Program-made: the position numbers and the translations under genes
Notes under the pieces: model-generated
Databases searched by the model: none
What the model was told of the DNA's origin: nothing
What the model saw: the letters and a program-made list of their open reading frames with translations, nothing else
DNA from: an uncultured Acidimicrobiales bacterium
Lineage (GTDB): Bacteria; Actinomycetota; Acidimicrobiia; Acidimicrobiales; SZUA-35
NCBI GenBank assembly: GCA_938021675.1
Contig: CALIFY010000035.1
Location: forward strand, 1-64,000
DNA length: 64,000 nt
Direction of reading: 5' to 3'
Shown here: positions 8,822 through 41,187 of the stretch, one piece after another
How positions within the stretch are numbered: the first letter of the stretch is position 1
How the letters are laid out: each line of letters opens with the position of its first letter

Positions 8822-10663
8822 TCACTCGGCCCGGAACCACTCCTCGATGTTCCAATACTCCGAATCCCAGCCGTTCAAATCGCCGGCTCCCTCGATGTCG
8901 TTGGCCCAGGCCGACACGTTCGCCCGGTAGATCAAGGGGATCAACGCACCTGACTCAACGATGTCGTCCTGCATCTGAGTCACCAAATCCTGGTAGTTGT
9001 CGGCCGACGGCGAGGTTTGGCTCGCTTCGAGGAACAACTCGTCGAATTCCGCCGACTGCATCCGAGGAATGTTGTTGTTGGCCGGCCAACCATCGGCGGC
9101 GGTCGGGATCTGCTCGGTGATGTAGTTGCCGAGATAGGCAACCGGATCGGGAACGGCTGCACCGTTGGTGAACATCTCCATGTCGGAGAAGAACTTCCAG
9201 ATGGATGCGTCGCTAGCGCTCGTTCCGTCGAAGAACAGCGCGCCGTCCTCATTGGACATGTTGACCTGGATGCCGATCTCTTCCCAGTTGGCTTTGATGA
9301 TGTCCTGGTTGGACTGACGGACCGCGTTTGTCGAGGTGACGTAGTCGAACTCCAGCGGCGTTCCATCGGTGAATTCCCGAGTGCCGTCACCGTCGGAATC
9401 CTCGTAGCCGAGACCGTCGAGGATCGAATTGGCTTCATCGACGTCGCGTTCGAGGCACCAATCCTGGTTCGACGAGTTCTGACCTTCAACCGGCCAAATA
9501 GTGCAGGTGGGAACCCCGGACGGGCCGTAGCCAACCTGGACGAGTGCGTCGCGATCGATGGCCAATGACAAGGCCTGGGCGAACTCGAAGTTGTCGAAGA
9601 GAATCGGGTGGTTACCCGAACCATCGGCCACATACTCCGACGGAGGATCAGCCTCCGGGTCGGTCTGGTTGAGGTTGATGTGCTCGACGTTTGCGGTGAA
9701 GCCTGTGCCGAGTCGGCCGTTACCGGCGGCGGCCATCGGGTCGAGGATCTCCGGCGCAACCTGGAGGTTCCAGGCTTAGTCGGCCTCCCCGATTTCCAAC
9801 ACGGAGCGTGCGGCCGCCTCAGCGTCGCCACCGCCCTTGATGGTCACGCTTCCGAAGAAGGGTTTACCTTCGGCCACACCCCGATAGTTGGGATTGAATT
9901 CGTAGGTCACCGTGTCTTCGGGTCGAAGTTCGGTCACCATGTAGGGACCGGTTCCGATCGGCGCGAAGTTCTGATCGGTACACGCGCTGGCCTGTTCACC
10001 GATGCACTCTTCAAACTGTGCCCGCTGCAAAACCGGCTCCAGATAGCCGACGAGATCCACGTACGGGTACGGCTGCGGGTCGGTGAAATTGACGGTTACG
10101 GTGAACTCGTCGTCGGCCACGATGGTATCGACCGTGGTGAAGTCGGCCGAGCAACCGGTCAGCTCATCAGCGCAGTATTCCCAGGTAAACACCACGTCAT
10201 CGGAGGTGAACGGCGTACCGTCGGACCAGGTGATGTCGTCCCGCAGCGTCCAGGTGACCGATGTGAAGTCTTCGGCAACCCCACCGTTGTCGAGGGTCGG
10301 AATCTCGGCAGCCAGGGTTGGAACTATCTCACCCGCCGGATCGAATTTCGCCAACGGCTCGTTGACAAGCGAGGCGGCTAGAAGGTCTTTCGTTCCCGAG
10401 GAAAGCATGGCGTTGGCCTGCGATGGTGCCTGCCACTGAAGCAAAAGGAGTTCGCCACCGGAGCCGGCTTCGCCGCTCGGAGCTTCGGCTTCTTCACCGT
10501 CTCCTTCTTCTTCCTCCTCTGCTTCGCCGTCTCCTTCATCGGCCTCGCCTTCGGCCGCAGTATCGGCACTGGTGTCGTCTTCCGATGCCTCGTCGTCGTC
10601 TCCGCCTCCACAGGCGGCTGCCACGAGCGTAAACGCGAATAGCAGAGCTAAGAGCTTCTTCAT
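8822..10663 (-). pseudogene. Solute-binding lipoprotein, family 5 (SBP 2), interrupted by an in-frame TAA
   Basis: Two same-frame halves together make a normal 612-residue family 5 binding protein. The first half (10663 to 9779) has the lipobox VAAAC (Cys17), a very acidic linker, and the fold start LLLLQWQAPSQANAML; it stops at codon 296 (TAA, 9776-9778) in the sequence GEAD-stop-AWNLQVAPE. The frame stays open after the stop to 8822 and carries the rest of the fold (FAQALSLAIDRDAL, PNPVAYLG-like segment, C-terminal WNIEEWF). Family members have Tyr at this place (GEADYAWNLQV type), so one base change TAC or TAT to TAA explains it. A good ribosome site (AAGGAGAGG) precedes the start. Either a recent nonsense mutation, a sequencing error, or a truncated product. 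Confidence 0.85.
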
Positions 10664-10680
10664 GCGTCCTCTCCTTCCAA

Positions 10681-10696
10681 ACCGGGGTATCCCGGT
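10681..10696. other. Short hairpin in the leader of SBP 2
   Basis: A perfect 6-bp inverted repeat, ACCGGG-GTAT-CCCGGT, lies 17-33 bases upstream of the SBP 2 start codon, just ahead of the ribosome binding site. It could shape translation of the leader but may be chance. The remaining upstream region to 10831 shows no other clear site. Confidence 0.3.
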
Positions 10697-10831
10697 GTAC
10701 GCGAGGCCTGATACTAGCTCTCGGCATCGTGCAAAATCACGACCAACGAGATTGTTGTTACCGTTTGGTCACCAGGCAGCAAAGTGGCAGGTGCCACATC
10801 CAACTACCAGCGGGTCGGCAAGATCCGGCCG

Positions 10832-12739
10832 CTACGACGACGCATCTGCAAGGCGAAGATCGACGATGCTGGCCAACGGGCCACCGCGATCACTGTCGTT
10901 TGTGACGCCGATCGAGGCGACGCGAGCCGTCCCAAACCCGTAGAGCAGCGGAGTCTCCACTAGGGGAATCATGAAGAGCCCATCTTCGCCGCCCTCAAGT
11001 GTCGTGACCCACTGGTCGAGTTCGTTGTAGCAGTCGGCCCGTTCCCCATCGTCGGGCGTGGCGTCGCAGTCGTTGGCCTGAATGTCGAACTCGGGATTGG
11101 AGAAGCCGTAGGGATTCCCGTCGGCTCCGCTCCGATACGCTCCGGATTGGCCTCCGGGCCACGGCCCACCAGACCAAGCGAACTGGGCAACGTCCCACAA
11201 CCCCCCGTCACCGTTGGTTCCGCCAGAGGTCGACGCAGCGATAGCGGCGTCGGAGAATGGCCGTTCCCGGAAGTAGGCACCGCCGGCGACGTTGTCGACC
11301 ACTATCTCGAATCCGGCCTCGGTCAGCTGTTCAGCGAGCAACGTTTGGACCAGTTCCCGCCGGTCGTCACCGCCGGTCGTGCCGATGCGGATGGACAGCG
11401 GGCCCCGGGTCGGATGCCGGAACACACCGTCGGAGTTTCGGGTGTACCCGGCCGCCTCCAGCGCCGCAGCCGCTTGGGCCGGCTGCGCACCGGCGAAATC
11501 AGCCTGATTGTCGACGTAGTTCGCCTGTTTCGACAACCAGTAGGTGTTGCCGAGCGGAACGGGCTGATCGTCGGCGGCCCGTGTCTCCCCATACACCTGG
11601 TCCACAATCGGGTCCTTGTCGATGGCTAGGGCCATGGCCTCTCGCACCGCCGGGTCGGCCAGATGCGGATTCAGCAAATTCAGGCCCCAGTGCTCGTACT
11701 CCGCTCCAATGATCGGCGCAACGACGAAGCCTTCGTCGTCCACGAGTGGCGAATGATCCGGCGTCGGCCGCTCGAACAGCAGATCAGCCCGACCCGCCGC
11801 TACCGCATCGATCCGAGCCTGACGATCGGGCACAAAGTCGATACGGACGGCGTCAACCTCCGACACGCCGTCATTGGTGGCGAGCGGATCAGCCGAACCG
11901 TGATATCGGTCGTTACGGGCCAGCGTCAGCGATTGCCCCCGTTCCCACGACTCAAACTGCAATGGCCCCGAGCTTGGGAGCGCACCATCGGGGCCGGTCA
12001 TTTCCAGCAATCGACGGTTGACTTCTGCTGCGTCGTCACCGAAGGCGTGAGCGGCAAAGACCGTCCGGTACAAACGGCGCCAGTCGGCGAAGAAGTTGGC
12101 CAAGGTAACGGTGAAGGTAACCTCTCCAGTGACCTCGAAACCGGTCACCAGGTCCAGACCGAAACGGGAATTCATGTCATAGCGGCAGCCGTCGTTCGTA
12201 CCGTCGGCAATGGAACCATCGGCTTCTTCGGCACAACCCTCGGTAAGGATCCGGTGGGTGTACGCCACATCTTCGGCCGTCAACGGCGTGTCGTCGGACC
12301 ACCGGAGATCAGATCGGAGTTGATACTTGATCTCAACCGTGTCGTCGCTGCGGACGGTCAACGCCGGTTCGCCGTCGAGCAGCTGCGGGTAGTAGTCGAG
12401 GTTGCGGTCAACACCAAACAACGATTCGAGCAGCCCGGTTTGAATCCAACCGGCGACCGGAAGACCGTTGCTGATCTGATCGTAGTGAAGGTCCGCAGGC
12501 TCTAAACCCTCGACCCAGACCACGGTGCCCTCAGGAGGTGGAGGTGCTGCCTCAACATTGGGATCGGCAACCTCGGAAGCTTCGCCAATCGGTACATCCC
12601 GATCGATCCTCGCGGTATCGATCGTCGACTCCCCTTCCGCCCCTGGGCCGGAGCTACAACCAGCGATCAATACGACGGCAGCAAACCCGAGACTCGTCAG
12701 CCTCCATCGTCGTTTTTCTGCCGCCATATCTTCGCTCAC
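10832..12739 (-). CDS. Solute-binding lipoprotein, family 5 (SBP 3)
   Basis: A 635-residue family 5 binding protein with a lipoprotein signal (basic KRRWR, hydrophobic core, lipobox LIAGC with Cys28 when counted from the GTG at 12739; an ATG at 12727 is an equally good start). The mature part follows the usual order: YYPQLLDGEPALTV, LRWSDDTPLTAEDVAYTHRI, GPLQFESWERGQSLTLARNDRY, AVREAMALAIDKDPIVDQVY and a late WDVAQFAWSGGPWPGG. It starts 24 bp after tpiA, so it may be transcribed with the glycolytic genes. With SBP 2 damaged, this protein is the likely main receptor for the permeases. The substrate is unknown; oligopeptides are the commonest ligands for this family. Confidence 0.88.
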   Translation of the reverse strand: MSEDMAAEKRRWRLTSLGFAAVVLIAGCSSGPGAEGESTIDTARIDRDVPIGEASEVADPNVEAAPPPPEGTVVWVEGLEPADLHYDQISNGLPVAGWIQTGLLESLFGVDRNLDYYPQLLDGEPALTVRSDDTVEIKYQLRSDLRWSDDTPLTAEDVAYTHRILTEGCAEEADGSIADGTNDGCRYDMNSRFGLDLVTGFEVTGEVTFTVTLANFFADWRRLYRTVFAAHAFGDDAAEVNRRLLEMTGPDGALPSSGPLQFESWERGQSLTLARNDRYHGSADPLATNDGVSEVDAVRIDFVPDRQARIDAVAAGRADLLFERPTPDHSPLVDDEGFVVAPIIGAEYEHWGLNLLNPHLADPAVREAMALAIDKDPIVDQVYGETRAADDQPVPLGNTYWLSKQANYVDNQADFAGAQPAQAAAALEAAGYTRNSDGVFRHPTRGPLSIRIGTTGGDDRRELVQTLLAEQLTEAGFEIVVDNVAGGAYFRERPFSDAAIAASTSGGTNGDGGLWDVAQFAWSGGPWPGGQSGAYRSGADGNPYGFSNPEFDIQANDCDATPDDGERADCYNELDQWVTTLEGGEDGLFMIPLVETPLLYGFGTARVASIGVTNDSDRGGPLASIVDLRLADASS

Positions 12740-29945: not shown

Positions 29946-31787
29946 ATGTTGCCAACATCCCAAGGCAGGCCGGCACCCGACCCTTTTCCGACTCCGCCGC
30001 CTTCTTCGCCACCGGTCGTCGGCTGGCACGAACTGATGCTGGCCGTCGTTTTGTTCCTCACCGTGCCGCTGGCTGGCCTTGATTCGGTGTGGAGCGCCGA
30101 CGAAGGTGCGCTGCTGTATCAAGCGACACACGTCGGATTCGACGGCGGGTTACAACACGACACCTGGAGCATCGATCATCCGTTTCCTGCCGCTGATCCG
30201 ACCGGTGAGGCGTTCCCGTTTCACCTGTCTGTCCGCGATGCCGCCGACGGGTATCTGGTATTGGCCAAACATACGATACTGACGCGGCTGGCGGCCGGGC
30301 TCTACGCTGTTGGCGGCTACCCCGCGGTGATCGGAATGGGAGCTGTCGGCACCTGGTTTGCTGCGGTTGCCGCCGCGAGACTGGCATGGCTGGTCGATCG
30401 GCGTGCTGCACGCCCCGCGTTGTGGCTGACAGGAATAGCCAGCCCGCTCTTCATCAGCTCTTTCGTTGCCTGGGGCCACACAATTACTGCTGCTTTCGTC
30501 GGCTGGGCCGCCTACCTGTTGTACCTGGGCGCTCTCCGTCGACGGTCGGCGGGGCAGAGATGGACCCGAATCGGTGGCGCGGCGCTGCTGGCGGTCGCCT
30601 GTGTACTCCGTACCGAGGCCGCTCTGGCCGGCATCGCCGTGACCGCCGGACTGGCCATCGTCGGTCTCGACTGGTCTCAACGTCAGCTTCGTCCGTCGAG
30701 CGTTCCCGCTCCCCGGCTTCGGGTTCGATGGCGGTCGGGCGAAGGCCGAGGTTGGCGCCGATCGGCGATGGCGGCACTGGGCGCCACCATCGTCGGGGTA
30801 GGGATCGACGCCGCCACCGCCATTCCGTACAACGGTGTGGTGACCGAGGAGCCCGACGCCGGCCCGTTCTGGTCGCCGGCGGCCCGATTCGACGGATTCT
30901 CCCAAACCTGGCTCCAGACAAGTTATACCGGCGCCGCTCACGACCTGCTCACCGCGGTCGCCGCGGTGGCGGTAATCGCAGCTGGAGTACTTCTTCGCCG
31001 CGGCCAGGAGCGGGCGACGTCAGCGGTTCTCTCGCTGGGCCTAGCGGTGGTGGCCATAGCGGCCCGGGCTATCGCCGAGCCGACCATGTTGGTTCCCGGC
31101 CTCGTCGTCGCCTTCCCGTTGCTGTTCGCCGGCGCTGCCCTTACCGCCCGCAGCGACATCCGCCACCCCGCCGCCCTGGCATCGACGATCTCATGGGTCC
31201 TGTTCGCCCTCGCCGTCCTCGCTACCCAATACCGGTATGGCGGCGGCGGAGAATGGGGAGGTCGCTACTTCGCCATTGGACTCCCGTTGGCCATTGCCGC
31301 CATCTGTCCGGGCATCGTCCGAACCTTGGATCAGATCGACCGGCCGGAGCGTCGCCGGCTGGTCGCCCTGGCCATTACCCCCGTGATCATCATGATGGTG
31401 CTCGGCATCGCCGGCATGCGCGACGTCCGCCGACAGACCAGCGAGCTCACCGACTCCATTCAGGCGGTCACCGCTCCGGCCGGCGATGGCGACGACCGCC
31501 CGGTAATCGTCACCACCGTAAAGCCGCTCGCCCGTTGGTCATGGGACGATGTCAACGACGGCCGCTGGCTCCTCGTCGACCCTGCCGAGCTGCCCTCGTT
31601 GGCCGCTCGATTGCGCACCCTCGACATCGACCGTGCGGTGCTGGTGACAGAGGGCGGTCCGGACGAACTCACCACCATCGAATCCTGGTATGCCCACCAC
31701 CCGATCGACTCCGATACTGGACCGGCGGACCGGCCGGCCGACCAAACGAGCATCGTCTACCCACTCGTTGCCGTCGACCGGCCGTGA
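29946..31787 (+). CDS. Large polytopic membrane protein, GT-C glycosyltransferase-like
   Basis: A 613-residue protein with about 11-12 membrane helices, a first extracytoplasmic loop carrying the acidic motif [10 protein letters not shown] (about 40-49) and a C-terminal soluble tail of about 110 residues. An Asp/Glu pair in the first loop after helix 1 is the hallmark of lipid-dependent GT-C glycosyltransferases (PMT/ArnT style), and this is the reason for the call. The ATG at 29946 is taken; a GTG at 29907 in frame is possible. It is divergent from uvrA with 145 bp between starts and convergent with the exported propeller gene (29 bp gap). Substrate unknown. Confidence 0.6.
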
Positions 31788-31816: not shown

Positions 31817-33436
31817 TCAGCTGAACGGTGGCACATCGAGGCGGTACACCTCGGCGTCGATTCCACACGACCCAGCATCGGAGTTGTAGTAGACCTTGGT
31901 GAAGTCACGGTTGACCACGGCGTGGGTTTCGGTCCAGTACTCCTCACCACAGTTGTAGGTGTGGGCCAGGTTCAAGACTCGCCCCTGTGGTGCCAGTTCC
32001 ACGGCCAGAACTTTCCCACACGACCACGCACCCGGTTCCTTGCAGTTGTAGGTGGAGGCGACAACCCACCCCGGCTTGCCATAGCCCTTGCCTGATATAT
32101 GGATCGAGGTGTTGGCGTCGTCGTACAGGTCAAATATCCGTGTCTCGTCCAGCGTTTCTAGATCGACGGCCATCAGCCACCCGCCGTTCGGCCCGGCGGT
32201 GAAGTCGATGTATACGTAGGTGTCTCGGCCGTCTGCATCGATGGCGAGGTCGCTATGCTCGCCGCCGGCAAACAGCAGTCGAGGGTCGGTCAAGTCGAAG
32301 TCGAGAACCCAGGTCCCGTCCCAGTGGCCGGCCACCACAGAGTCCCCGCTCGGTGAGGCCGAGACCCAATCGATGGTGCTGCTATCGGGGAGGGCGGATC
32401 TGGGGATGACGGCTAGCGAATCCGAGCCTAGATCATATGAGGCCACCCCGATGACATCCTCCTGTTCGTCGTACACCATCCAGGCCCAACGGTCACCATC
32501 GATACTTGGCGAGCCTTCGGCCTTGTCATGCATGTAGTCAGCGCCCGGGAGCGTCTTTTGAATGCGGGCGGTCAGATCGGCAAGTACCGATGACGTACCG
32601 GTGGTGACGTCAAGCTCATACAACGCGAGGTCACCGCCGTAGCTGTTGTCGTCGGCGGTATGGCGAATCAAGTTTGGCTCGGTCGGGTGCCACTGGGGCC
32701 ATGAATCGGCGGAAATGGTAAGCGCTCGAACGAGCTCGCCGTTCGCCGCGTCATAGACGTGATACGCCCCGTCGCCGTGGTAGGTGAGAAAGCTGGATCC
32801 GTCGGCGTTCTCGGCCTGACGGCGACTATAGGTGTTCCGGTTGAATCGGGTTCCGTCCGCGCTGCTAACCCGAGCCGTTGTCGTGCCGTAGGCTGGATCG
32901 AGGTACGGTTCGAACACCGCGGGGCGAGACCACCCATCGTCTGGCACCGTGTCGTCGAAACCCCAGACCAAACCGTCCGATGTCGGGGTCGGCACCGAAG
33001 AATCTGCAGGCTCTGAATCAGGCTGGGAATCGGGTTGGGAATCGGGCTCTGAATCGGGCTGGGAAGATTCTGGTTCTGGCTCAGGAGCTGGTGCCGGGGG
33101 CTGATCCGAACCCGGTCCTGGTGGATCCGCATCTGTTGTCGGTGCGACAACGACCGGCGCGCTGTCCAGACCGACGACGTACACGGTCTCTTCGCTGTAG
33201 GTTACAAACGCGTCAGGCGTAGCCGTCTTGGCATCGGCCGCGGCCGACCGGGCGTCGTCCTCCGACTCGTGGCTAGAAGCCTTTACGCCACCGATCTCGA
33301 CCCAGTAACGGGTCGGTCGGTCCTCGAATGTCACCGACGCCCGTTCGTCAGCGCCAACCGATACAGCCACCGTGAGCACCGCCAGGGCCAACCCGGCCCC
33401 CAGGGCGCCAAGTGTCCAACTCCTCTTGTGTTTCAT
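31817..33436 (-). CDS. Exported beta-propeller-like protein with Pro/Asp/Ser linker
   Basis: A 539-residue protein: Sec signal (MKHKRSWTLGALGAGLALAVL), a short alpha/beta module (about 42-95, YWVEIGGVKASSHESEDDARSAA...VYVVGL) that resembles a SPOR repeat, a linker of SQPDSEPDSQPDS repeats, and about 370 residues of blade-like repeats (for example DGAYHVYDAANGELVRALTIS, PQWHPTEPNLIRH, GGDLALYELDVTTGTSSVL, TWVLDFDLTDPRLLFAGG). The blades match the TolB/PD40 style of propeller. Four Cys near the C-terminus (CKEPGAWSC, CGEEYW, SCGID) could form disulfides outside the cell. It is the last gene of the sigma module. No enzyme motif seen. Confidence 0.75.
   Translation of the reverse strand: MKHKRSWTLGALGAGLALAVLTVAVSVGADERASVTFEDRPTRYWVEIGGVKASSHESEDDARSAAADAKTATPDAFVTYSEETVYVVGLDSAPVVVAPTTDADPPGPGSDQPPAPAPEPEPESSQPDSEPDSQPDSQPDSEPADSSVPTPTSDGLVWGFDDTVPDDGWSRPAVFEPYLDPAYGTTTARVSSADGTRFNRNTYSRRQAENADGSSFLTYHGDGAYHVYDAANGELVRALTISADSWPQWHPTEPNLIRHTADDNSYGGDLALYELDVTTGTSSVLADLTARIQKTLPGADYMHDKAEGSPSIDGDRWAWMVYDEQEDVIGVASYDLGSDSLAVIPRSALPDSSTIDWVSASPSGDSVVAGHWDGTWVLDFDLTDPRLLFAGGEHSDLAIDADGRDTYVYIDFTAGPNGGWLMAVDLETLDETRIFDLYDDANTSIHISGKGYGKPGWVVASTYNCKEPGAWSCGKVLAVELAPQGRVLNLAHTYNCGEEYWTETHAVVNRDFTKVYYNSDAGSCGIDAEVYRLDVPPFS
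33003..33070. repeat. Short tandem repeats in the exported propeller gene linker
   Basis: Repeated units of about 12-18 bases built on AATCGGGCTGGG and TCTGAATCAGGCTGGG, encoding alternating DSQP and DSEP. In-frame, so copy changes would only alter the linker between the N-terminal module and the propeller. Confidence 0.7.
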
Positions 33437-33493
33437 ACGTCTCTACTTTCTGTTACTTCTGTTTTTCTGTTGTGTGGTCTGGCCGCCGGTTCG

Positions 33494-34810
33494 TTACTCC
33501 GGCAGCTCGACGATGAACGTCTCGACGCGGTCGGACCGACCGTCACTCGACCAGATAAGCCACCGACCGGACGGGCTGAGCGACACAAAGTTGGTCGACC
33601 AATACTCGTGACGGGCCGCCCCGCCGTGGTCGGCGACAAAGCGAGGCTGGCCAGACCGGTCACCGCTGTCGAATACCAGAACCTTGCCCGCCAGTGCCGA
33701 GGCGTTGGTTCGGTCGTCATCAACCCCTCTAATGGTCAACGCCACCGACGACGAATTGGTCGAGGCCGACAACCAGGTTCCTGACGGCGGATACTCATCA
33801 CCGGAGGAGGGTCCGACAATGACACGAGCCGGGGTCCCGTCGATGGGGTGTAACACCAACGAACCGATCTCGTCGCCCTGATACTGAGCGGCCGCCAGAT
33901 ACTCACCTCCGGCACCGTCGCCGACCACAACGAACTGATCGCCTTCCAAGTCGATCGAGACACCGGTCGGGTCGAGGTCGGCATCGAGAATGCCGACAGA
34001 CCCATCGGAGGCCCCGACGGCGAACCGAGTACCAGACGGAGCGGGACGAGGAGCCTCGCGACCGTCGGTGATGACCCTGATCTCCCGACCGGTGTCGAGC
34101 TCAAAGGCGAGCATGAATGTGTCGCCATCGGCATAGCACAGCAAACCCATCAACCCGCCTGACGACGGTGGCACCGGCGTCGACCCCGAGTCGACTCGGT
34201 CACATCCAACAAACCGGTGGAGGGTTGACTCACGTCGCTCGTTCACACTCCACGATCTCAGCTCATTGCCCGCGGCGAACACCAGTAGGTCTGGGTTGGT
34301 TGGGTGCCAGTAGACCTGCTCAATGTCGGGAGGATCGACTACCGCTTCCCCGATCTGTTCACCGGTTGCTACATCGATGACCAGATAAGCCGGTGACGAC
34401 GAACCGGTCCGGTACAACAACAGGTGGGTTTCGTCGGCATTCCACGCCGAACCGAACGGGAGTGGCACCAGGTATTCGCCCGACGTCGCGCTGGTCAGCT
34501 GTTGAGTTTGACCTCCAGTGGGTTCAGTGGACTCGACCGGATCGGTAGTGACGTCCAGTTCTCCGTCGGTCACCTCGGTCGGGCCGGCCATGTCCGCCCG
34601 GTTTCCAGTGATGACACCACCTGGATCGGACTGGACGAGCACCACCCCGGCTGCCAGAAGTCCGATGACGACCGCTGCCGCCAGGACCCGGGCACGACGG
34701 ATGGTACCGGGTCGGTTGCGGTCGACCCGGTACTCCGGCACCGACATTCCGGCGACCTGGCGGCGTAGGTCGGCGGTAGCCGAATGCAGATCGTCATCGA
34801 GTTCAGTCAT
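33494..34810 (-). CDS. Membrane-anchored beta-propeller protein, probable sigma-factor partner
   Basis: A 438-residue type II-like membrane protein: about 40 cytoplasmic residues (MTELDDDLHSATADLRRQV...IRRAR), one membrane helix (VLAAAVVIGLLAAGVVLV, about 43-60) and an external domain of propeller-like repeats (HLLLYRTGSSSPAYLVIDVATGEQIGE, VYWHPTNPDLLVFAAGNELRSW, GDTFMLAFELDTGREIRVI, FVSLSPSGRWLIWSSDGRSD). Its ATG overlaps the sigma factor stop by four bases (34807-34810), which strongly suggests a linked function such as holding or sensing for that sigma factor. The cytoplasmic part is too short for a classical anti-sigma domain and has no HxxxCxxC zinc motif. Role is inference. Confidence 0.7.
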   Translation of the reverse strand: MTELDDDLHSATADLRRQVAGMSVPEYRVDRNRPGTIRRARVLAAAVVIGLLAAGVVLVQSDPGGVITGNRADMAGPTEVTDGELDVTTDPVESTEPTGGQTQQLTSATSGEYLVPLPFGSAWNADETHLLLYRTGSSSPAYLVIDVATGEQIGEAVVDPPDIEQVYWHPTNPDLLVFAAGNELRSWSVNERRESTLHRFVGCDRVDSGSTPVPPSSGGLMGLLCYADGDTFMLAFELDTGREIRVITDGREAPRPAPSGTRFAVGASDGSVGILDADLDPTGVSIDLEGDQFVVVGDGAGGEYLAAAQYQGDEIGSLVLHPIDGTPARVIVGPSSGDEYPPSGTWLSASTNSSSVALTIRGVDDDRTNASALAGKVLVFDSGDRSGQPRFVADHGGAARHEYWSTNFVSLSPSGRWLIWSSDGRSDRVETFIVELPE

Positions 34811-35322
34811 CGCTCCTCCCGGTGATGATCTAGCCGATCTGACAGCGTGGCTCTTCCCCGCTTCAAATGGGTCTTTGCCGTCTCGAGCGAACATCCGAGG
34901 ATCTCGGCAATCTCCGCTACCGAACGGTCTTCCCAGTAACGGAGAGCGATCGCCTGGGCCTGCCGTCTGGGCAATGTCCGAACGGCATCCAAGATCTCAT
35001 CGCTCTGCGGCCGAAGCTCGATCGGTGCCTCTACCGAACGGGCACCGATCCTGGCCATGGCCGCCGCCTCGACCCGCAAGCGACGGAAGCGGCTAACCCG
35101 CTTGTTGAACATGACACGACGGACCCAGGCACCAGGGTCCTCATAGCGACCGACCGACTCCCAACGGCGGTGAGCTTCGGTGAACGCCTCGTGCACGAGG
35201 TCCTCGGCCGCCCAATGCGATCCGGTCCACAGGTAGGCCAACCCGAACAGTTGCCGATAGTCGCGCCAGTAAAAGTCGTCGAACGACTGTGATTCGTGCC
35301 CGTTCACCACGGCCTGACCCAT
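34807..35322 (-). CDS. RNA polymerase ECF-type sigma factor (sigma-70 family, SigE-like)
   Basis: A sigma factor of about 171 residues. Region 2 is recognised in FDDFYWRDYRQLFGLAYLWTG, then WAAEDLVHEAFTEAHRRWESV and DPGAWVRRVMFNKRVSRFRR; region 4 in LPRRQAQAIALRYWEDRSVAEIAEILGCSLETAKTHLKRGRATL. No region 1 or 3, as in ECF factors. I took ATG at 35322; a GTG at 35358 in frame is also possible, and neither has a clear ribosome site. Upstream, GGAACC at about 35443 might belong to its own promoter but no matching -10 was found at the right distance. Neighbours suggest it controls envelope or secreted-protein genes. Confidence 0.9.
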   Translation of the reverse strand: MGQAVVNGHESQSFDDFYWRDYRQLFGLAYLWTGSHWAAEDLVHEAFTEAHRRWESVGRYEDPGAWVRRVMFNKRVSRFRRLRVEAAAMARIGARSVEAPIELRPQSDEILDAVRTLPRRQAQAIALRYWEDRSVAEIAEILGCSLETAKTHLKRGRATLSDRLDHHREER

Positions 35323-35487
35323 GAGGGTGGAGGAAGATCCCACACCTATTACACGCACAACCGGTCAGGTTGGGGGGACAGCCTTCGAAGAAAAGCAGGC
35401 ATCCGGCAACGTATCGGTGTCCGAGGTCAATATCCGAAGACCGGTTCCTGCTCCGTGTACCTTCGCTCAATAACCCTTCGCCGGCCC

Positions 35488-37443
35488 CTAGTTCACCGAA
35501 TTTCTGCTCCCAGAGTCATCGACGGTCCCATTGCTCGTGAGCGCTATGTCGCTCGATCGGTTCGTCAGTTCCACCGGATGGCTGGTCAGGTTGTTCACCA
35601 CCATTTGCTTGGCCTCATGCTGTTCCGGCTTTCCTTCAAAATCCCACCGGTCCCAGGTAAAACCGATGCGAATCGGTCGGAGGGTTACAGGTTCGGTGCC
35701 GTCGCTCCGCAGCGTGATGTCGAAGTTCGATCCCCCGATGGTCGCGAGGGCGTGGTCGCCGGTCGTGAACTCAGGTTCCAAGACCGTTATGTCGTACTCG
35801 GCGTCGTTGGCGCTGCCGTACGGAATAGCGATAATCGGACCGAACGCTGCATCACCTCGTGAGTTGGTGACCGAACCGCCACGATTTGGCAGATTGAATC
35901 CAGCCTCGCAGCCCCGGACCTCGACGTTATCGACGGTCGCTTTCCCGTCCGCCAAGGCCAACGTGACACAGCCTCGCATATTTACAACCGTGGAGTCTTC
36001 GACGGTGATCGAACCGGTCTTCACCGACGAACCGTCCAGCTTCTCCCCCGAGGTGTATGCCCGAATACCGTCTTCGACGAGCGGGTACATTCGGGTTTTG
36101 TCGATGGGCTGACCGGCAAGGTGATCGGGTTGGAACTGTTCGAACCCGGCTTTGTCGGGCAGTGAGCCGGCGCCGTCTTCGTACATTTCAGAGCCAAGGC
36201 GCATCTTGCCTTGCACCTGGGTGTTTCGGATGACCGTGTTGTCGGCACCCTGCATGAATATGCCGTGGCCAAACGCTTCGACGGTGAGATCCATGCCGTC
36301 GATGAGCGTGTCGTCTCCGATCACCTGGATGCCCGACTGCTTCCGGCTGCCAAACTTTGTTTGGCTGCCCTTGCCGAACATCTCGCCATAGCCATAGGGG
36401 TACGAGCCTCTCACGGTGACCGTGTTATTGAGCAGCTGGTTCCCGTTGCCGGCCACCTGGAAGAACGTGCTCCCACCTCCGGGGCTATTTGAGCGATCTT
36501 CGTTGTATGCCTTGAAATCGGTGACCGCCGTGCTGCCGTCGGCGTAGGTGTTGACGAAATTGCCACCGAGCACGGTGTTGTTGTTTCCTTCAATCTTGAT
36601 GCTGGCGAACGTATGGGTCTCGCCGGACATCGTGCTCAATAACTTCACCGGCAGATCGATCGTGACGTCGGTCAAGTCAAAGAAGTTGTTACTACCGGCG
36701 ATCCGAAGCACGGTGACCTCATCGGCTAGCAACGAGTCGAGCACGTACTCGCCGGGTTCCAGACGGTAGTGACCGCCGTCTCCACCAAAGGCCTCGATAA
36801 GTTCAGCGATGGAGCTAATCGTCTGGGCTTCGCCGGGCGGCTGACCAACCGCTGTCGTAGAAGGTGTGGAGACTCTGGTGGTGGTCGACCCGGGCGCCTC
36901 GGTGGTGGTCGCCGGCTCGCTCGTTGTCGACCCCGGCTCCTCCGTAGTTGGAGATGTCGACGAACCGGTGACGTCGACTATCGAGGGGGACGGGGCGTCG
37001 TCTCCGAGTTGTTCGCTCGAACAAACCCATTCGCTACCGACTGGGTCGCAGTCATGACGCGGCAATTCGCACGCCGAGCTGTAGGCCCGGCGCGCTTCGT
37101 CAAGAGTCGGTCCGGATGCGGAACACTCGGCCCCAGCTGCCACTTCGTCCGACGGATTTCCTCCTGTGGTAATCGCGCTGACCGCGAAGATTGACAGAGC
37201 GACACAGACCAGGGCGGCCAGTCCGCCGAGCACGAACCGCCATCGGCCAGCGAAGAGGAAACCCAACGACTGTGGGGTATGCGACTTGATCCGACTGAAC
37301 GCCGTCGAGACGGCAGGATCGCGCAGCCGCTGACTCCGGCCCGATGATTCGAAATTGTTTCGTTGGTCTCTAGTCGCCCGGTCATCGAACGGCTCACCGT
37401 GGTCCACCGTGTTCTCTCCGTCATCTCGATCGATGCCCCGCAT
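35488..37443 (-). CDS. Membrane-anchored right-handed beta-helix protein
   Basis: A 651-residue protein with a 70-residue basic cytoplasmic N-terminus, one membrane helix (FVLGGLAALVCVALSIFAV, about 70-92), a Cys-containing segment, a Thr/Ser/Pro linker with TTTEAPGSTTT-like runs, and then about 430 residues of parallel beta-helix repeats with Asn ladders (IEGNNNTVLGGNFVNT, VAGNGNQLLNNTVTV, QGADNTVIRNTQVQG, VEDSTVVNMRGCVTL). Such folds occur in pectate lyase-like enzymes and in structural surface proteins; I see no pectate lyase catalytic Arg motif. ATG at 37443 used; an ATG at 37461 in frame would overlap the promoter-like GGAAC-N16-CGTT at 37448-37472. Confidence 0.82.
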   Translation of the reverse strand: MRGIDRDDGENTVDHGEPFDDRATRDQRNNFESSGRSQRLRDPAVSTAFSRIKSHTPQSLGFLFAGRWRFVLGGLAALVCVALSIFAVSAITTGGNPSDEVAAGAECSASGPTLDEARRAYSSACELPRHDCDPVGSEWVCSSEQLGDDAPSPSIVDVTGSSTSPTTEEPGSTTSEPATTTEAPGSTTTRVSTPSTTAVGQPPGEAQTISSIAELIEAFGGDGGHYRLEPGEYVLDSLLADEVTVLRIAGSNNFFDLTDVTIDLPVKLLSTMSGETHTFASIKIEGNNNTVLGGNFVNTYADGSTAVTDFKAYNEDRSNSPGGGSTFFQVAGNGNQLLNNTVTVRGSYPYGYGEMFGKGSQTKFGSRKQSGIQVIGDDTLIDGMDLTVEAFGHGIFMQGADNTVIRNTQVQGKMRLGSEMYEDGAGSLPDKAGFEQFQPDHLAGQPIDKTRMYPLVEDGIRAYTSGEKLDGSSVKTGSITVEDSTVVNMRGCVTLALADGKATVDNVEVRGCEAGFNLPNRGGSVTNSRGDAAFGPIIAIPYGSANDAEYDITVLEPEFTTGDHALATIGGSNFDITLRSDGTEPVTLRPIRIGFTWDRWDFEGKPEQHEAKQMVVNNLTSHPVELTNRSSDIALTSNGTVDDSGSRNSVN

Positions 37444-37447
37444 CGTC

Positions 37448-37472
37448 AACGCCCACCTCATTGGATAGTTCC
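37448..37472 (-). promoter_or_regulatory. Candidate ECF sigma promoter (GGAAC-N16-CGTT)
   Basis: On the minus strand, GGAAC (37472-37468) is followed after exactly 16 bases by CGTT (37451-37448), the general ECF promoter layout. Transcription would start close to the ATG at 37443, giving a nearly leaderless message. The sigma factor gene is in the same module about 2 kb downstream. Only one match was found, so this is suggestive. Confidence 0.45.
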
Positions 37473-37527
37473 CACGACGCAGCGTCGTTAAACAAGAAAT
37501 CTAGACATCGACCACGCCGGGTACGAC

Positions 37528-38991
37528 TTACTCGTCCGACACCCGGTCGAAGGTCTCGATTCCATCGATGTTGGTGATCGAGATGTTTCCGCTCGAATCG
37601 ATCTGCCAGTGAAGTTCTTGCTCGCCGTATGGGCAGGAGACATCTGTGAAAAGACCGGCGCTCGACAAGTGGAGCGTGCACCTAACGCCAGCGGTGTTGG
37701 TCCAAATGAGTTCGTCGTTTTCGTACACTATCTCCACGGTGTGCCAGTCGTTTTCGACCGGGTTGCGTCGATAGACACCGGTCAGGTCTTCCTCGCTCTG
37801 GATGTCGGTATCCGTGGCCATGCTGATCCGTTCGGTCACGCTCGGGGTTGCCGTGTAGAACCGTTTGTTGAGCGCTTCGGCAAAGTAGTCGGACTCGAAG
37901 GTGCCAACGAAGTCATCGGGCCAAGAAGACCTCTCGAACCACAAGTGAAGCTCCGGTTCGAGATCAAACTCTTCAAAGCTGTTGAACAGGTGATGAAAAT
38001 ACTCGTGCTGCAGCCAGTTTGGCAGTTGACCACGCCGCTCGAGGTCGGTGTAGGGTTCGCCGCCGTGTTGTACGTCCTTGTCGAGAAAGATCGTGTCGTT
38101 CCCAATGAAATTCGGTTTACCGTCGAAGCTCCCCATTGCACCGGAAACGATCTCAACGCTCTCAAAGACCGGATCGCTCGGTCGGGAACTTGGATACGTC
38201 ACAAGGAACATGTCCGAACCTTCAATGACGTCTTCTGGCAACTGGCGAATCGAGTTGTCTGAGTCTCGGATTCCGGCGAAATTTCCTCCGTTACAGCAGT
38301 CGACCTCAGCGCACTCCGATACGTGTTGGAAGTCGAGTTCCAGGTACCGTTCACCTCCGGTGATGGCCCAGACATACATCTGGAACAGTTGCATCGACTG
38401 CCGCAGAACGAAATAGTCATCGGCGACGAGCCGCTGATCCAGCACCAAATCATCGACCGGCTCTGATTCGGCAAGATCCGGGGTCGCCGGCCGTACGCCC
38501 GAAGCACACTCGACCAGCACGAACGTGAACGTAAGCGGCTCGACCTCCACAGCCGGTTCGCCCAAGCCGACTCGGGCGATCTCGTCGAGCATCCTCAACG
38601 CGTTGTATCCGACGATGTCGCCGACCCGAACCCCGGAAACGGCATTGTCCGCCGTCCAGACCGGATCAGACATCGAATACTTTTCGAAAACGTCGTCGAT
38701 TCGAGCTCGGGCGGTGGCGAAATCTCCGGCGACGACGTCATCTTCGGCGAGCATGTAGGTCTCGACCGCATCGCGAAACAGAGGAGTGAACGTGTCACGG
38801 CCGCCGTAGGTGTCGTAGAACGTTTCTATCTGGGCGGCGCTGTCGTTTTCGACGACCGGCGCGGGGAGCAGTGGGGATGTGGCCTGCGCCCCCAACGCCG
38901 CCGTTCCGATCTGTAACCCGGCCACCGCTGTCCCTACCAGAGCCAGCAAGACAAGGCCTCTACCCAATGGCCGACCAAACAGTCGCTTCAT
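37528..38991 (-). CDS. Exported protein with HExxH motif, putative gluzincin-like metalloprotease
   Basis: A 487-residue protein. The ATG at 38991 follows AGGAAGAG at 9 bases and starts a signal peptide (MKRLFGRPLGRGLVLLALVG). Near the C-terminal third is HEYFH at 329-333 (HExxH zinc motif) inside LPNWLQHEYFHHLFNSFEEF, with conserved-looking Glu at 366 and 372 (FESDYFAEALNKRF), about 33-39 residues later, a spacing that fits a third zinc ligand of gluzincin type. Four Cys (CAEVDCC, C-terminal TCL/SCP) may form disulfides. The rest shows no family I recognise. It starts the five-gene block on the minus strand. Function as a protease is inference from the motif. Confidence 0.6.
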   Translation of the reverse strand: MKRLFGRPLGRGLVLLALVGTAVAGLQIGTAALGAQATSPLLPAPVVENDSAAQIETFYDTYGGRDTFTPLFRDAVETYMLAEDDVVAGDFATARARIDDVFEKYSMSDPVWTADNAVSGVRVGDIVGYNALRMLDEIARVGLGEPAVEVEPLTFTFVLVECASGVRPATPDLAESEPVDDLVLDQRLVADDYFVLRQSMQLFQMYVWAITGGERYLELDFQHVSECAEVDCCNGGNFAGIRDSDNSIRQLPEDVIEGSDMFLVTYPSSRPSDPVFESVEIVSGAMGSFDGKPNFIGNDTIFLDKDVQHGGEPYTDLERRGQLPNWLQHEYFHHLFNSFEEFDLEPELHLWFERSSWPDDFVGTFESDYFAEALNKRFYTATPSVTERISMATDTDIQSEEDLTGVYRRNPVENDWHTVEIVYENDELIWTNTAGVRCTLHLSSAGLFTDVSCPYGEQELHWQIDSSGNISITNIDGIETFDRVSDE

Positions 38992-39165: not shown

Positions 39166-41187
39166 TCAAACCAGCTCTCGAAGTTCCCTCCGGAGATCCT
39201 TGATCTCATCGCGGAGACGGGCGGCGTACTCGAAGCGCAGCTCGGCTGACGCCTCTTGCATCTCGTCCTCAAGTGAGTCGATGAGTCGACGCAGCTGATC
39301 CTCGGGCAACTCGGCCAGCTCCTGCAAACGCTTTTGCTCTTCCGGACGCCGCTTCCGTTTGTCTTTGCCCGGAATTGGCGCTTCCTTGTCTGGGCGGATC
39401 AACGACAGGATGTCGGTCACCGCCTTGCGAACCGTTTGAGGGTTGATGCCGTGGGCGGTGTTGTATGCAATTTGCAGGCCGCGGCGACGGTTGGTCTCGG
39501 AGATGGCTCGCTGCATCGACGCCGTCATCTGGTCGGCGTACATGATGACCCGGCCTTCGACGTTTCGGGCGGCCCGTCCGATGGTTTGGACCAGCGATGT
39601 CTCGGACCGGAGGAACCCCTCCTTGTCAGCATCGAGAATGCACACCAGCTGAACCTCGGGAAGATCGAGCCCTTCCCGGAGAAGGTTGATGCCGACCAGC
39701 ACATCGAACTCCCCCATACGAAGACCTCGCAGCAGCTCGATCCGTTGGATCGTGTCTACCTCGGAGTGGAGGTATCGAACCCGTACTCCCTGCTCAAGAA
39801 GGTAGTCGGTCAAGTCCTCGGCCATTTTTTTGGTCAGGGTGGTCACCAAGACCCGACCCTCGTTGTCGACCACGGCTGAGATTTCCCCCAACAAGTCGTC
39901 GATCTGACCTTTGGTGGGCCGAACCACAACTTCAGGGTCGATCAAGCCGGTCGGTCGGACGATCTGCTCGGCGACCGTCGTGGAGTGTTCCAGCTCGTAG
40001 GGGCCGGGCGTCGCCGACAGGAAGACGACTTGATTGACCATCTCACGCCACTCTTCAAACTGCAGCGGCCGATTGTCGGCGGCAGACGGCAGCCGAAAGC
40101 CGTGCTCTATCAGCATGTCTTTCCGGCTCCGGTCGCCCTGGTACTGGCCGTGGAGCTGGGGTACGGCGACGTGGCTCTCGTCGAGCACCATGAGATAATC
40201 GTCGGGAAAAAAGTCGAGCAACGTAAACGGCCGCTCACCCGGCTGGCGACCGTCGATGTGCCGGCTGTAGTTCTCGATGCCGTTGCAAAAGCCCATCTCT
40301 TGCATCATTTCAAGGTCGTACTGCGTACGCATGCGTAGCCGCTGCGCTTCCAGCAGCTTCTGCTGACCCTCGAGTTCCGCCAACCGTTCCTGCAGCTCTG
40401 CTTCGATACCGGAAATTGCCGTCGCCATCCGCTCGTCCGATGCCACGTAGTGAGTGGCTGGATACACGGCGAGATAGTCGAGGGCACCCAACCGCTCGCC
40501 GGTCAAGGGATCGACCGTGGTGATGGCCTCGATCTCGTCACCGAACAGTTCAACTCGAACCATGAACTCCTCGTATGCCGGGTGTAGTTCAATGGTGTCG
40601 CCCCTGACGCGGAACTTACCCCTCGTCAGATTCATATCGTTCCGCTCGTACTGCATGTCGACCAGCTTCGACAGGATCGATCGCTGATCGTATTCTTTGC
40701 CGGCCTCCAGCATCAGAAGCTTTTTTCGGTACTCCTCGGGAGAACCAAGACCGTAGATGCACGACACGGATGCAACCACGATCGTGTCCGGCCTGGTCAA
40801 CAGAGCAGAGGTCGTTGAGTGTCGGAGGCGATCGATCTCGTCGTTGACCGATGAGTCCTTCTCTATATAGGTGTCCGAAGACGGGATGTACGCTTCCGGC
40901 TGGTAGTAGTCGTAGTAGCTGACGAAATACTCGACCCGGTTGTCGGGGAAGAACTCACGGAACTCGTTGGCCAGCTGGGCCGCCAACGACTTGTTTGGTG
41001 CGATAACCAACGTTGGTTTTTGAACGGCCTCGATCGTCCAGGCGATGGTGGCCGACTTGCCAGAACCGGTGATCCCCAGAAGCGTCTGCATGGACTCGCC
41101 AGCCTGGATACTGCGAGTGAGCGCCTCGATTGCTGCCGGCTGATCGCCGGCGGGCCGATAATCCGAAACCATGGTGAACGGAGACAC
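39166..41187 (-). CDS. uvrB: UvrABC excinuclease subunit B
   Basis: A 673-residue helicase-like DNA repair protein. SF2 motifs are clear: motif [10 protein letters not shown] (Ser in place of the usual Thr after Lys), [16 protein letters not shown], the beta-hairpin [16 protein letters not shown] that clamps [28 protein letters not shown], motif [20 protein letters not shown] and [19 protein letters not shown]. The C-terminal UVR motif ([28 protein letters not shown]) binds UvrC. Normal length. 68 bp downstream of coaE on the same strand. Confidence 0.97.

Follow-up and report, generated by a model that had tools for sequence, protein, structure and literature searches.

The sigma-I6/RsgI6 pair of C. 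thermocellum senses through a near-inactive glycoside hydrolase family 10 (GH10) module of RsgI6, which is 57% identical to Xyn10D, a protein of its own regulon, and its sigma factor is autoregulated (PMC4711584). By analogy, this pair is the closest working parallel to a trio of genes that we describe here in a 64,000-nucleotide stretch of contig CALIFY010000035.1 from an uncultured Acidimicrobiales bacterium (the whole stretch is called the window). The trio encodes an extracytoplasmic function (ECF) sigma factor, a membrane-anchored beta-propeller (memP) and a secreted beta-propeller (secP). At the level of sequence, the mechanistic likeness to sigma-I/RsgI lies in a presumed membrane anti-sigma factor whose sensor is paralogous to a regulated secreted protein but degenerate, and in an apparently autoregulated sigma factor; it is firmer for the secP-type sensors of some relatives, introduced below. 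The output of sigma-I6/RsgI6 consists of secreted carbohydrate-active proteins. On the other hand, sigma-I is not an ECF sigma factor, whereas the window encodes an ECF sigma factor and a beta-propeller sensor. Membership in the sigma-I/RsgI group calls for an RsgI_N domain together with sigma-I, and no RsgI domain was found among the Pfam and NCBIfam matches of memP, which places the trio outside this group.

In the class II anti-sigma factor CnrY, a short cytosolic helical segment of a membrane protein restrains the ECF sigma factor CnrH (PMC7406223), as memP may do; however, no sequence match between them was detected, memP has an external propeller of its own, and it has one predicted cytosolic helix instead of two. 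In IutY (ECF243) and in the ECF52 and ECF53 fusions, of which ECF52 has a carbohydrate-binding domain, the sigma factor is joined to a transmembrane (TM) segment and an extracytoplasmic domain (PMC8999054), as in a fusion found at locus L115 of one relative. In the trio family, however, such a fusion is exceptional (one genome), lacks a zinc finger and has a propeller as its sensor. ECF57 also links an ECF sigma factor to WD40-like propeller repeats (PMC8999054), but these are C-terminal, whereas the window sigma factor, from an actinobacterium, has no extension and its propeller is encoded apart, as a TM protein. We found no published ECF sigma factor with a propeller anti-sigma factor in Actinobacteria, in a search that missed the main ECF classification papers; the window sigma factor may already have an ECF group number. 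The trio probably belongs to the known field of ECF sigma/anti-sigma surface signalling, in a new form.

The sigma/memP/secP trio

We consider it likely that the trio is a cell-surface ECF signalling unit, with memP as anti-sigma factor and sensor, an autoregulated sigma factor, and secP as output. It is part of a row of five co-oriented minus-strand open reading frames (ORFs) between uvrB and uvrA, numbered here 5' to 3' on that strand (1, HEYFH protein; 2, beta-helix protein; 3, sigma factor; 4, memP; 5, secP). The initial annotation of this DNA, which took all five for one system, had their positions and strand right, although a sixth gene, for a plus-strand membrane protein (29952-31787), also lies there and separates uvrA from the cluster. 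Genome comparisons indicate that the five genes are not one system and that genes 3-5 are a real module. Its features are as follows.

35351..35380, minus strand: predicted autoregulated promoter TGTCCCC-N18-CGTGT (same element before most sigma genes of the clade)
34807..35343, minus strand: gene 3, SigE-like ECF sigma factor, 178 aa with the leaderless start predicted at GTG 35343, the ORF reaching GTG 35358 (Pfam, promoter geometry)
33494..34810, minus strand: gene 4, memP, presumed anti-sigma factor and sensor, 438 aa (ATGA overlap, AlphaFold2 model)
34703..34810, minus strand: aa 1-36 of memP, the cytosolic N-terminus that presumably binds the sigma factor (motif common to both sensor types)
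31817..33436, minus strand: gene 5, secP, secreted propeller, 539 aa (identity within Acidimicrobiales, model, conserved pocket residues)

The assignments made earlier for these three products stand. Gene 3 matches Sigma70_r2 (33 bits) and Sigma70 r4_2 (62 bits), both above cut-off, and with these two regions only in ~180 aa it is an ECF sigma factor. The top of its 85 NCBIfam matches is the SigE family TIGR02983, at 137.3 bits for the ORF as given and with a cut-off of 141.55; by sequence, gene 3 is a close relative of this family and is not filed as a member. Translation most likely starts at GTG 35343 and not at the annotated GTG 35358, because the conserved -10 element covers the latter. 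The memP start codon overlaps the sigma stop codon as ATGA (34810-34807), as expected of a cotranslated membrane propeller, and its AlphaFold2 model (predicted local distance difference test, pLDDT, 79) has a cytosolic helix (aa 2-20), a TM segment (aa 37-55) and an extracytoplasmic propeller (aa ~100-436). secP has a signal-peptide-like segment (aa ~9-27), a low-complexity linker and a propeller (aa ~152-539) that contains 19 conserved polar residues and is modelled with a pLDDT of 94.

The window genome (a 4.4-Mb assembly in 99 contigs, 95% complete), which by its named relatives is Acidimicrobiales/Ilumatobacteraceae-like, was compared with relatives in a panel of 80 genomes, which was used for both trio and promoter counts. 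Of these, 13 genomes have memP homologues, 20 have secP and 19, with the window genome counted, have the close sigma clade; the three sets largely coincide. The genes are arranged as sigma-memP-secP at six loci and as secP-sigma-memP at one, and the trio is convergent at two loci and divergent at two. At six loci, the sigma gene is directly followed by a secP-type propeller with an N-terminal segment and a TM segment (the secP-type sensors). At none of the relatives' trio loci does the trio lie between uvrA and uvrB. This combination of shuffled order and steady association argues for functional linkage as opposed to inherited synteny, and marks sigma, memP and secP as a module that recurs across Acidimicrobiales. 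In the sigma tree, the propeller-linked sigma factors cluster together with moderate support (94/83).

A common promoter and its targets

The elements TGTCCCC and CGTGT, separated by 18 nt, precede most of the clade's sigma genes at this fixed spacing; they also stand before most Acidimicrobial secP genes outside the operon and on both sides of divergent pairs. Strict matches are present in 15 of the 19 genomes with the sigma clade versus 2 of the 61 without it (Fisher p=7e-11); for strict sites distant from sigma and secP genes, the figures are 12 of 19 and 2 of 61 (p=6e-8). An ATG or GTG begins exactly 7 nt past CGTGT at 26 of the 57 distinct sites (the next commonest offset accounts for 10 sites). 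This preferred offset indicates leaderless transcripts, with the sigma factor of the window predicted to start at GTG 35343. The pattern TGTCCCC-N18-CGTGT can be searched for in any genome.

Those strict sites that are not near a sigma or secP gene mostly precede genes for exported or surface-type proteins. These include seven DUF1800 genes, six of them adjoined by DUF1501 in the stretches read, as well as genes for a PF14099-like polysaccharide lyase and for FN3-like and FG-GAP proteins. In four genomes, DUF1800-DUF1501 directly adjoins the trio. A widespread uncharacterised pair is thus tied to a defined regulon in relatives. The DUF1800 genes of the window genome itself were rejected as targets: they belong to a distant clade (28%) and lack the promoter. 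Weaker promoter-like sites in the window genome revealed no convincing exported target. One near-match (G000:C77:18271-18303; loci L254 and L255), ~270 nt upstream of a gene that by eye is PspA/IM30-like, is probably due to chance.

secP and the sensors that resemble it

Identity of secP to its Acidimicrobiales relatives is 45-62%. The solved fold closest to its model is that of polysaccharide lyase family 22 (PL22) oligogalacturonate lyase (PDB 3pe7, 3c5m; template modelling score 0.67, E 1e-14), but secP is only 16% identical to it, and none of 21 members of the secP family matches any Pfam family, including PF14583 (PL22), which membership in PL22 would call for together with an Mn/His active site. 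Since the profile comparison (hhalign) gave a probability of 2.7%, the fold likeness has no sequence-profile support, and we rejected secP as a PL22 enzyme. In an ungapped hand alignment, E503-x-H505 of secP lies opposite the HxH of the PL22 protein L271, which is a lead to be read alongside that low profile probability. All free secP proteins examined retain 17-19 of the 19 polar residues, even those of Myxococcales and Lysobacteraceae at 35-40% identity, and this conservation looks like that of a catalytic or ligand pocket. secP therefore represents a conserved secreted propeller family that has an enzyme-like pocket and falls outside all Pfam families.

The propellers linked to sigma factors differ. 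Five of the six sigma-linked secP-type sensors have 6-13 of the 19 polar residues, whereas of 15 non-polar residues that are invariant, secP-type sensors retain 13-15, which indicates loss of the pocket and not of the fold. In memP, 2-3 of the 19 remain and many of the non-polar invariants are lost too, which makes descent from secP less certain for memP than for the secP-type sensors, whose paralogy is firmer. The 19 residues were chosen by conservation from an alignment that includes three sigma-linked secP-type sensors, and thus the telling part is how the sensors contrast with the non-polar set and with free proteins that are more divergent. On these comparisons, the sensor seems to be a paralogue of the regulated secreted propeller that has degenerated. 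secP-type propellers also form the extracellular domain of Ser/Thr kinases (L130 4308-6731, L131 7171-9561), where the polar pocket is lost, with 5-6 of the 19 residues remaining. Secreted pocket propellers may repeatedly have become sensors by losing the pocket and acquiring a Ser/Thr kinase or else a short tail with anti-sigma function, a scenario that we put forward tentatively and hold a little less probable than its opposite.

An alternative is that secP is a signalling partner and not an output: it would bind or shield the memP propeller, or compete with it for ligand, and thereby set the threshold of the switch. Negative feedback through a regulated secreted partner would fit the linkage or co-regulation of secP with sigma and memP in nearly all clade genomes, and secP is the most conserved extracytoplasmic part. 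However, homologues with the same 19 residues are found without the sigma factor in Proteobacteria, Myxococcales and Salinibacterium, and the conservation pattern resembles that of a pocket for catalysis or for a ligand; we therefore regard a partner role as rather unlikely and prefer secP as the output of the unit. In Proteobacteria (Caldimonas, Rhizobacter, Lautropia and Lysobacteraceae), secP homologues are arranged in tandem, with 2-4 genes per array and without the sigma factor (eight loci). Two Salinibacterium isolates have a secP at 60-62% identity without sigma factor, memP or promoter, a distribution that suggests horizontal transfer.

memP as the presumed anti-sigma factor

The N-terminal motif A..DLR....VP.F.P.R of memP is kept in relatives, and this N-terminal motif, with a TM segment, is found on two types of propellers directly 3' of sigma genes, memP and the secP-type sensors. 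At locus L115 of genome G005 (8939-10876), sigma factor, TM segment and propeller are encoded in a single 645-aa ORF, although an assembly frameshift may account for it. No known anti-sigma domain, neither a class I (ASD I) nor a zinc-binding (ZAS) domain, was detected in memP with Pfam and NCBIfam, and its cytosolic part comprises only ~36 aa. Compared with class II anti-sigma factors, it has one 19-residue helix, predicted with moderate confidence.

These features leave room for another explanation, in which memP is not an anti-sigma factor but a co-transcribed surface protein, and the activity of the sigma factor is set by its own synthesis. The missing domain and the ~36 cytosolic residues, versus an average of ~100 residues for class I domains (PMC7406223), speak for this explanation. 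On the other hand, the cytosolic motif is conserved across two propeller types 3' of sigma genes, sigma and memP are naturally fused in one ORF, and short class II domains such as that of CnrY wrap an ECF sigma factor (PMC7406223). We judge it even less probable than a partner role for secP, and retain memP as the presumed anti-sigma factor; its N-terminus is a candidate minimal anti-sigma segment.

Proposed mechanism

In the mechanism that we propose, the cytosolic ~36-residue segment of memP (one helix and a VPxFxPxR stretch) would hold the sigma factor at the membrane, and the external propeller would be the sensor. The cue is probably a glycan or a substrate or product of secP, a best guess made because the sensor resembles a dead secP. 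When the propeller meets the cue, the sigma factor would be freed and would transcribe its own operon, in a positive feedback, as well as secP from TGTCCCC-N18-CGTGT. In relatives, its targets would also include DUF1800-DUF1501 operons and further genes for exported proteins; most of the mRNAs would be leaderless. secP itself would be the conserved output: a propeller that is secreted and either resembles an enzyme or binds a ligand. Linkage, the common promoter, the paralogy of secP-type sensors and their degeneration were computed directly; we infer that memP binds the sigma factor, which way regulation runs, that the sigma factor is released, what kind of cue acts and what secP does. The initial annotation had envisaged surface sensing by the propeller, sigma release and expression of surface proteins, and this idea gains support from the recurrence of the trio, the common promoter and the single-ORF sigma/memP fusion.

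If the tentative scenario of propellers repeatedly turned into sensors is true as well, the cell uses a dead copy of a protein for sensing and then secretes the protein itself, via a self-amplifying ECF sigma factor with leaderless promoters, and the trio would follow the RsgI6 principle independently, on an ECF basis, with a new class of minimal anti-sigma factor. The trio also offers a testable wiring diagram (sensor, sigma factor, promoter sequence and targets) for the poorly characterised Acidimicrobiales.

Several points weigh against this mechanism, the evidence for which is computational throughout. memP matches no known anti-sigma domain, and its presumed binding to the sigma factor is read from gene position. 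With 24-32% identity in matching pairs, memP is too divergent from secP for firm descent, and one secP-type sensor (L145) retains all 19 polar residues. The window genome has one strict promoter match, at 35380-35351, which is the operon's own, and a recognisable site is missing from at least 6 of the 27 secP genes examined outside the operon. Both the strict promoter pattern and the 19 residues were picked from the conserved set, so that the counts favour the pattern; the less biased tests are, for the promoter, the sites distant from both kinds of genes (sigma and secP) and, for the pocket, the non-polar residue control. Finally, secP occurs without the sigma factor in the two Salinibacterium isolates and in all proteobacterial and myxobacterial relatives, and so has a sigma-independent role as well.

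Genes 1 and 2

The two upstream genes of the row were searched for in 394 other genomes of the class.

37528..38991, minus strand: gene 1, exported protein, 487 aa, two-member uncharacterised family, outside the module (single homologue found)
35488..37461, minus strand: gene 2, fucoidan-lyase (FdlA)-like protein, 657 aa, outside the module (phmmer versus 7xzf)
39166-41187: uvrB, the upstream flank of the minus-strand cluster

Gene 2 encodes a TM segment (aa 76-94), a Cys-rich module of ~45 aa, a Ser/Thr/Pro linker and a catalytic beta-helix (aa 215-656). Nothing in Pfam or NCBIfam matched it above threshold, whereas a phmmer search of solved structures matched residues 215-656 to the Flavobacterium fucoidan lyase FdlA (7xzf, E=1.3e-47). 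In FdlA (PDB 7xz7-7xzf), Ala changes at D137, K141, H176, F179, E236, R240 and Y242 abolish activity, and a change of H279 leaves 65% (PMC9410043). Six of these seven essential residues are identical in gene 2 (K141, H176, F179, E236, R240 and Y242) and D137 is replaced by Glu; R272 is kept and H279 is Leu. With a match over 440 residues that includes the essential active-site residues, gene 2 belongs to the FdlA family, to which it adds the N-terminal TM segment, Cys-rich module and linker. The earlier description as a membrane-anchored beta-helix protein was accurate as to fold and its one TM segment, and its identity is now corrected to a fucoidan-lyase homologue. Elsewhere in the class, this domain gave a single short weak match (81 residues, E 2e-6), and gene 2 most likely represents a lyase of a brown-algal polysaccharide that was acquired locally.

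Gene 1 has a single homologue, in genome G127 (36% identity), which stands alone without a sigma or propeller gene nearby. Its reading as a secreted HExxH metalloprotease was correct in the N-terminal signal or TM segment and in the letters HEYFH, but the motif QHEYFHHLF of gene 1 is QTEFFHHLF in the homologue. Because Thr replaces the first His of HExxH there, the zinc-protease reading loses a key residue; no protease family in Pfam or NCBIfam matched gene 1. We rejected gene 1 as a metalloprotease or site protease as unsupported, and the proteolytic step once suggested as possible lacks support.

No homologues of genes 1 and 2 were detected in the relatives' trio loci, and the trio promoter was not found before either gene; both are local neighbours of the trio and not components of it. 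While all non-sigma products are indeed directed across the membrane, with a TM or signal-like segment in genes 1, 2, 4 and 5, the idea of a five-gene system (sensor, sigma factor, two secreted effectors and a protease), in which the beta-helix and HExxH proteins would be regulated or take part in signalling, is very improbable: for it speak adjacency, common strand and export of every non-sigma product, and against it the trio loci without genes 1 and 2, their near absence from the class, the promoter before the sigma gene only, and the unconserved HExxH motif. Family distribution and promoter position likewise led us to reject a five-gene operon. Nothing points to transcription as a single unit, as the trio has its own predicted promoter 3' of gene 2; no terminator candidate between gene 2 and the sigma gene was better than shuffled sequences. 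The initial annotation had suggested co-occurrence in other genomes as a check and had named scattered families in relatives as grounds for refutation: sigma, memP and secP recur together, but the families of genes 1 and 2 do not, and for these two that refutation applies.

The plus-strand gene at 29952-31787, convergent with secP, encodes a multi-TM protein with a weak match to the LA_3751/LA_3752 putative glycosyltransferase family (55 bits, cut-off 200). The ~45-residue Cys module of gene 2 (aa ~113-157, CxAxGxTLxxARxAYxxxCxxPRxDCDPxxxxWxCSSxxIG) is located after the TM or signal segment and before the low-complexity linker. It matches no named family that we found and is present, over nine loci besides gene 2, in at least five proteins of the window genome and in exported proteins of relatives, which by eye are carbohydrate-active-enzyme-like, DUF1996-like and transglycosylase-like; the module possibly serves in surface anchoring. 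One carrier, L097 (G000:C32:27556), is a TM protein that ends in the Cys module and resembles another anti-sigma factor, and an ECF sigma gene is its neighbour at G000:C32:28491.

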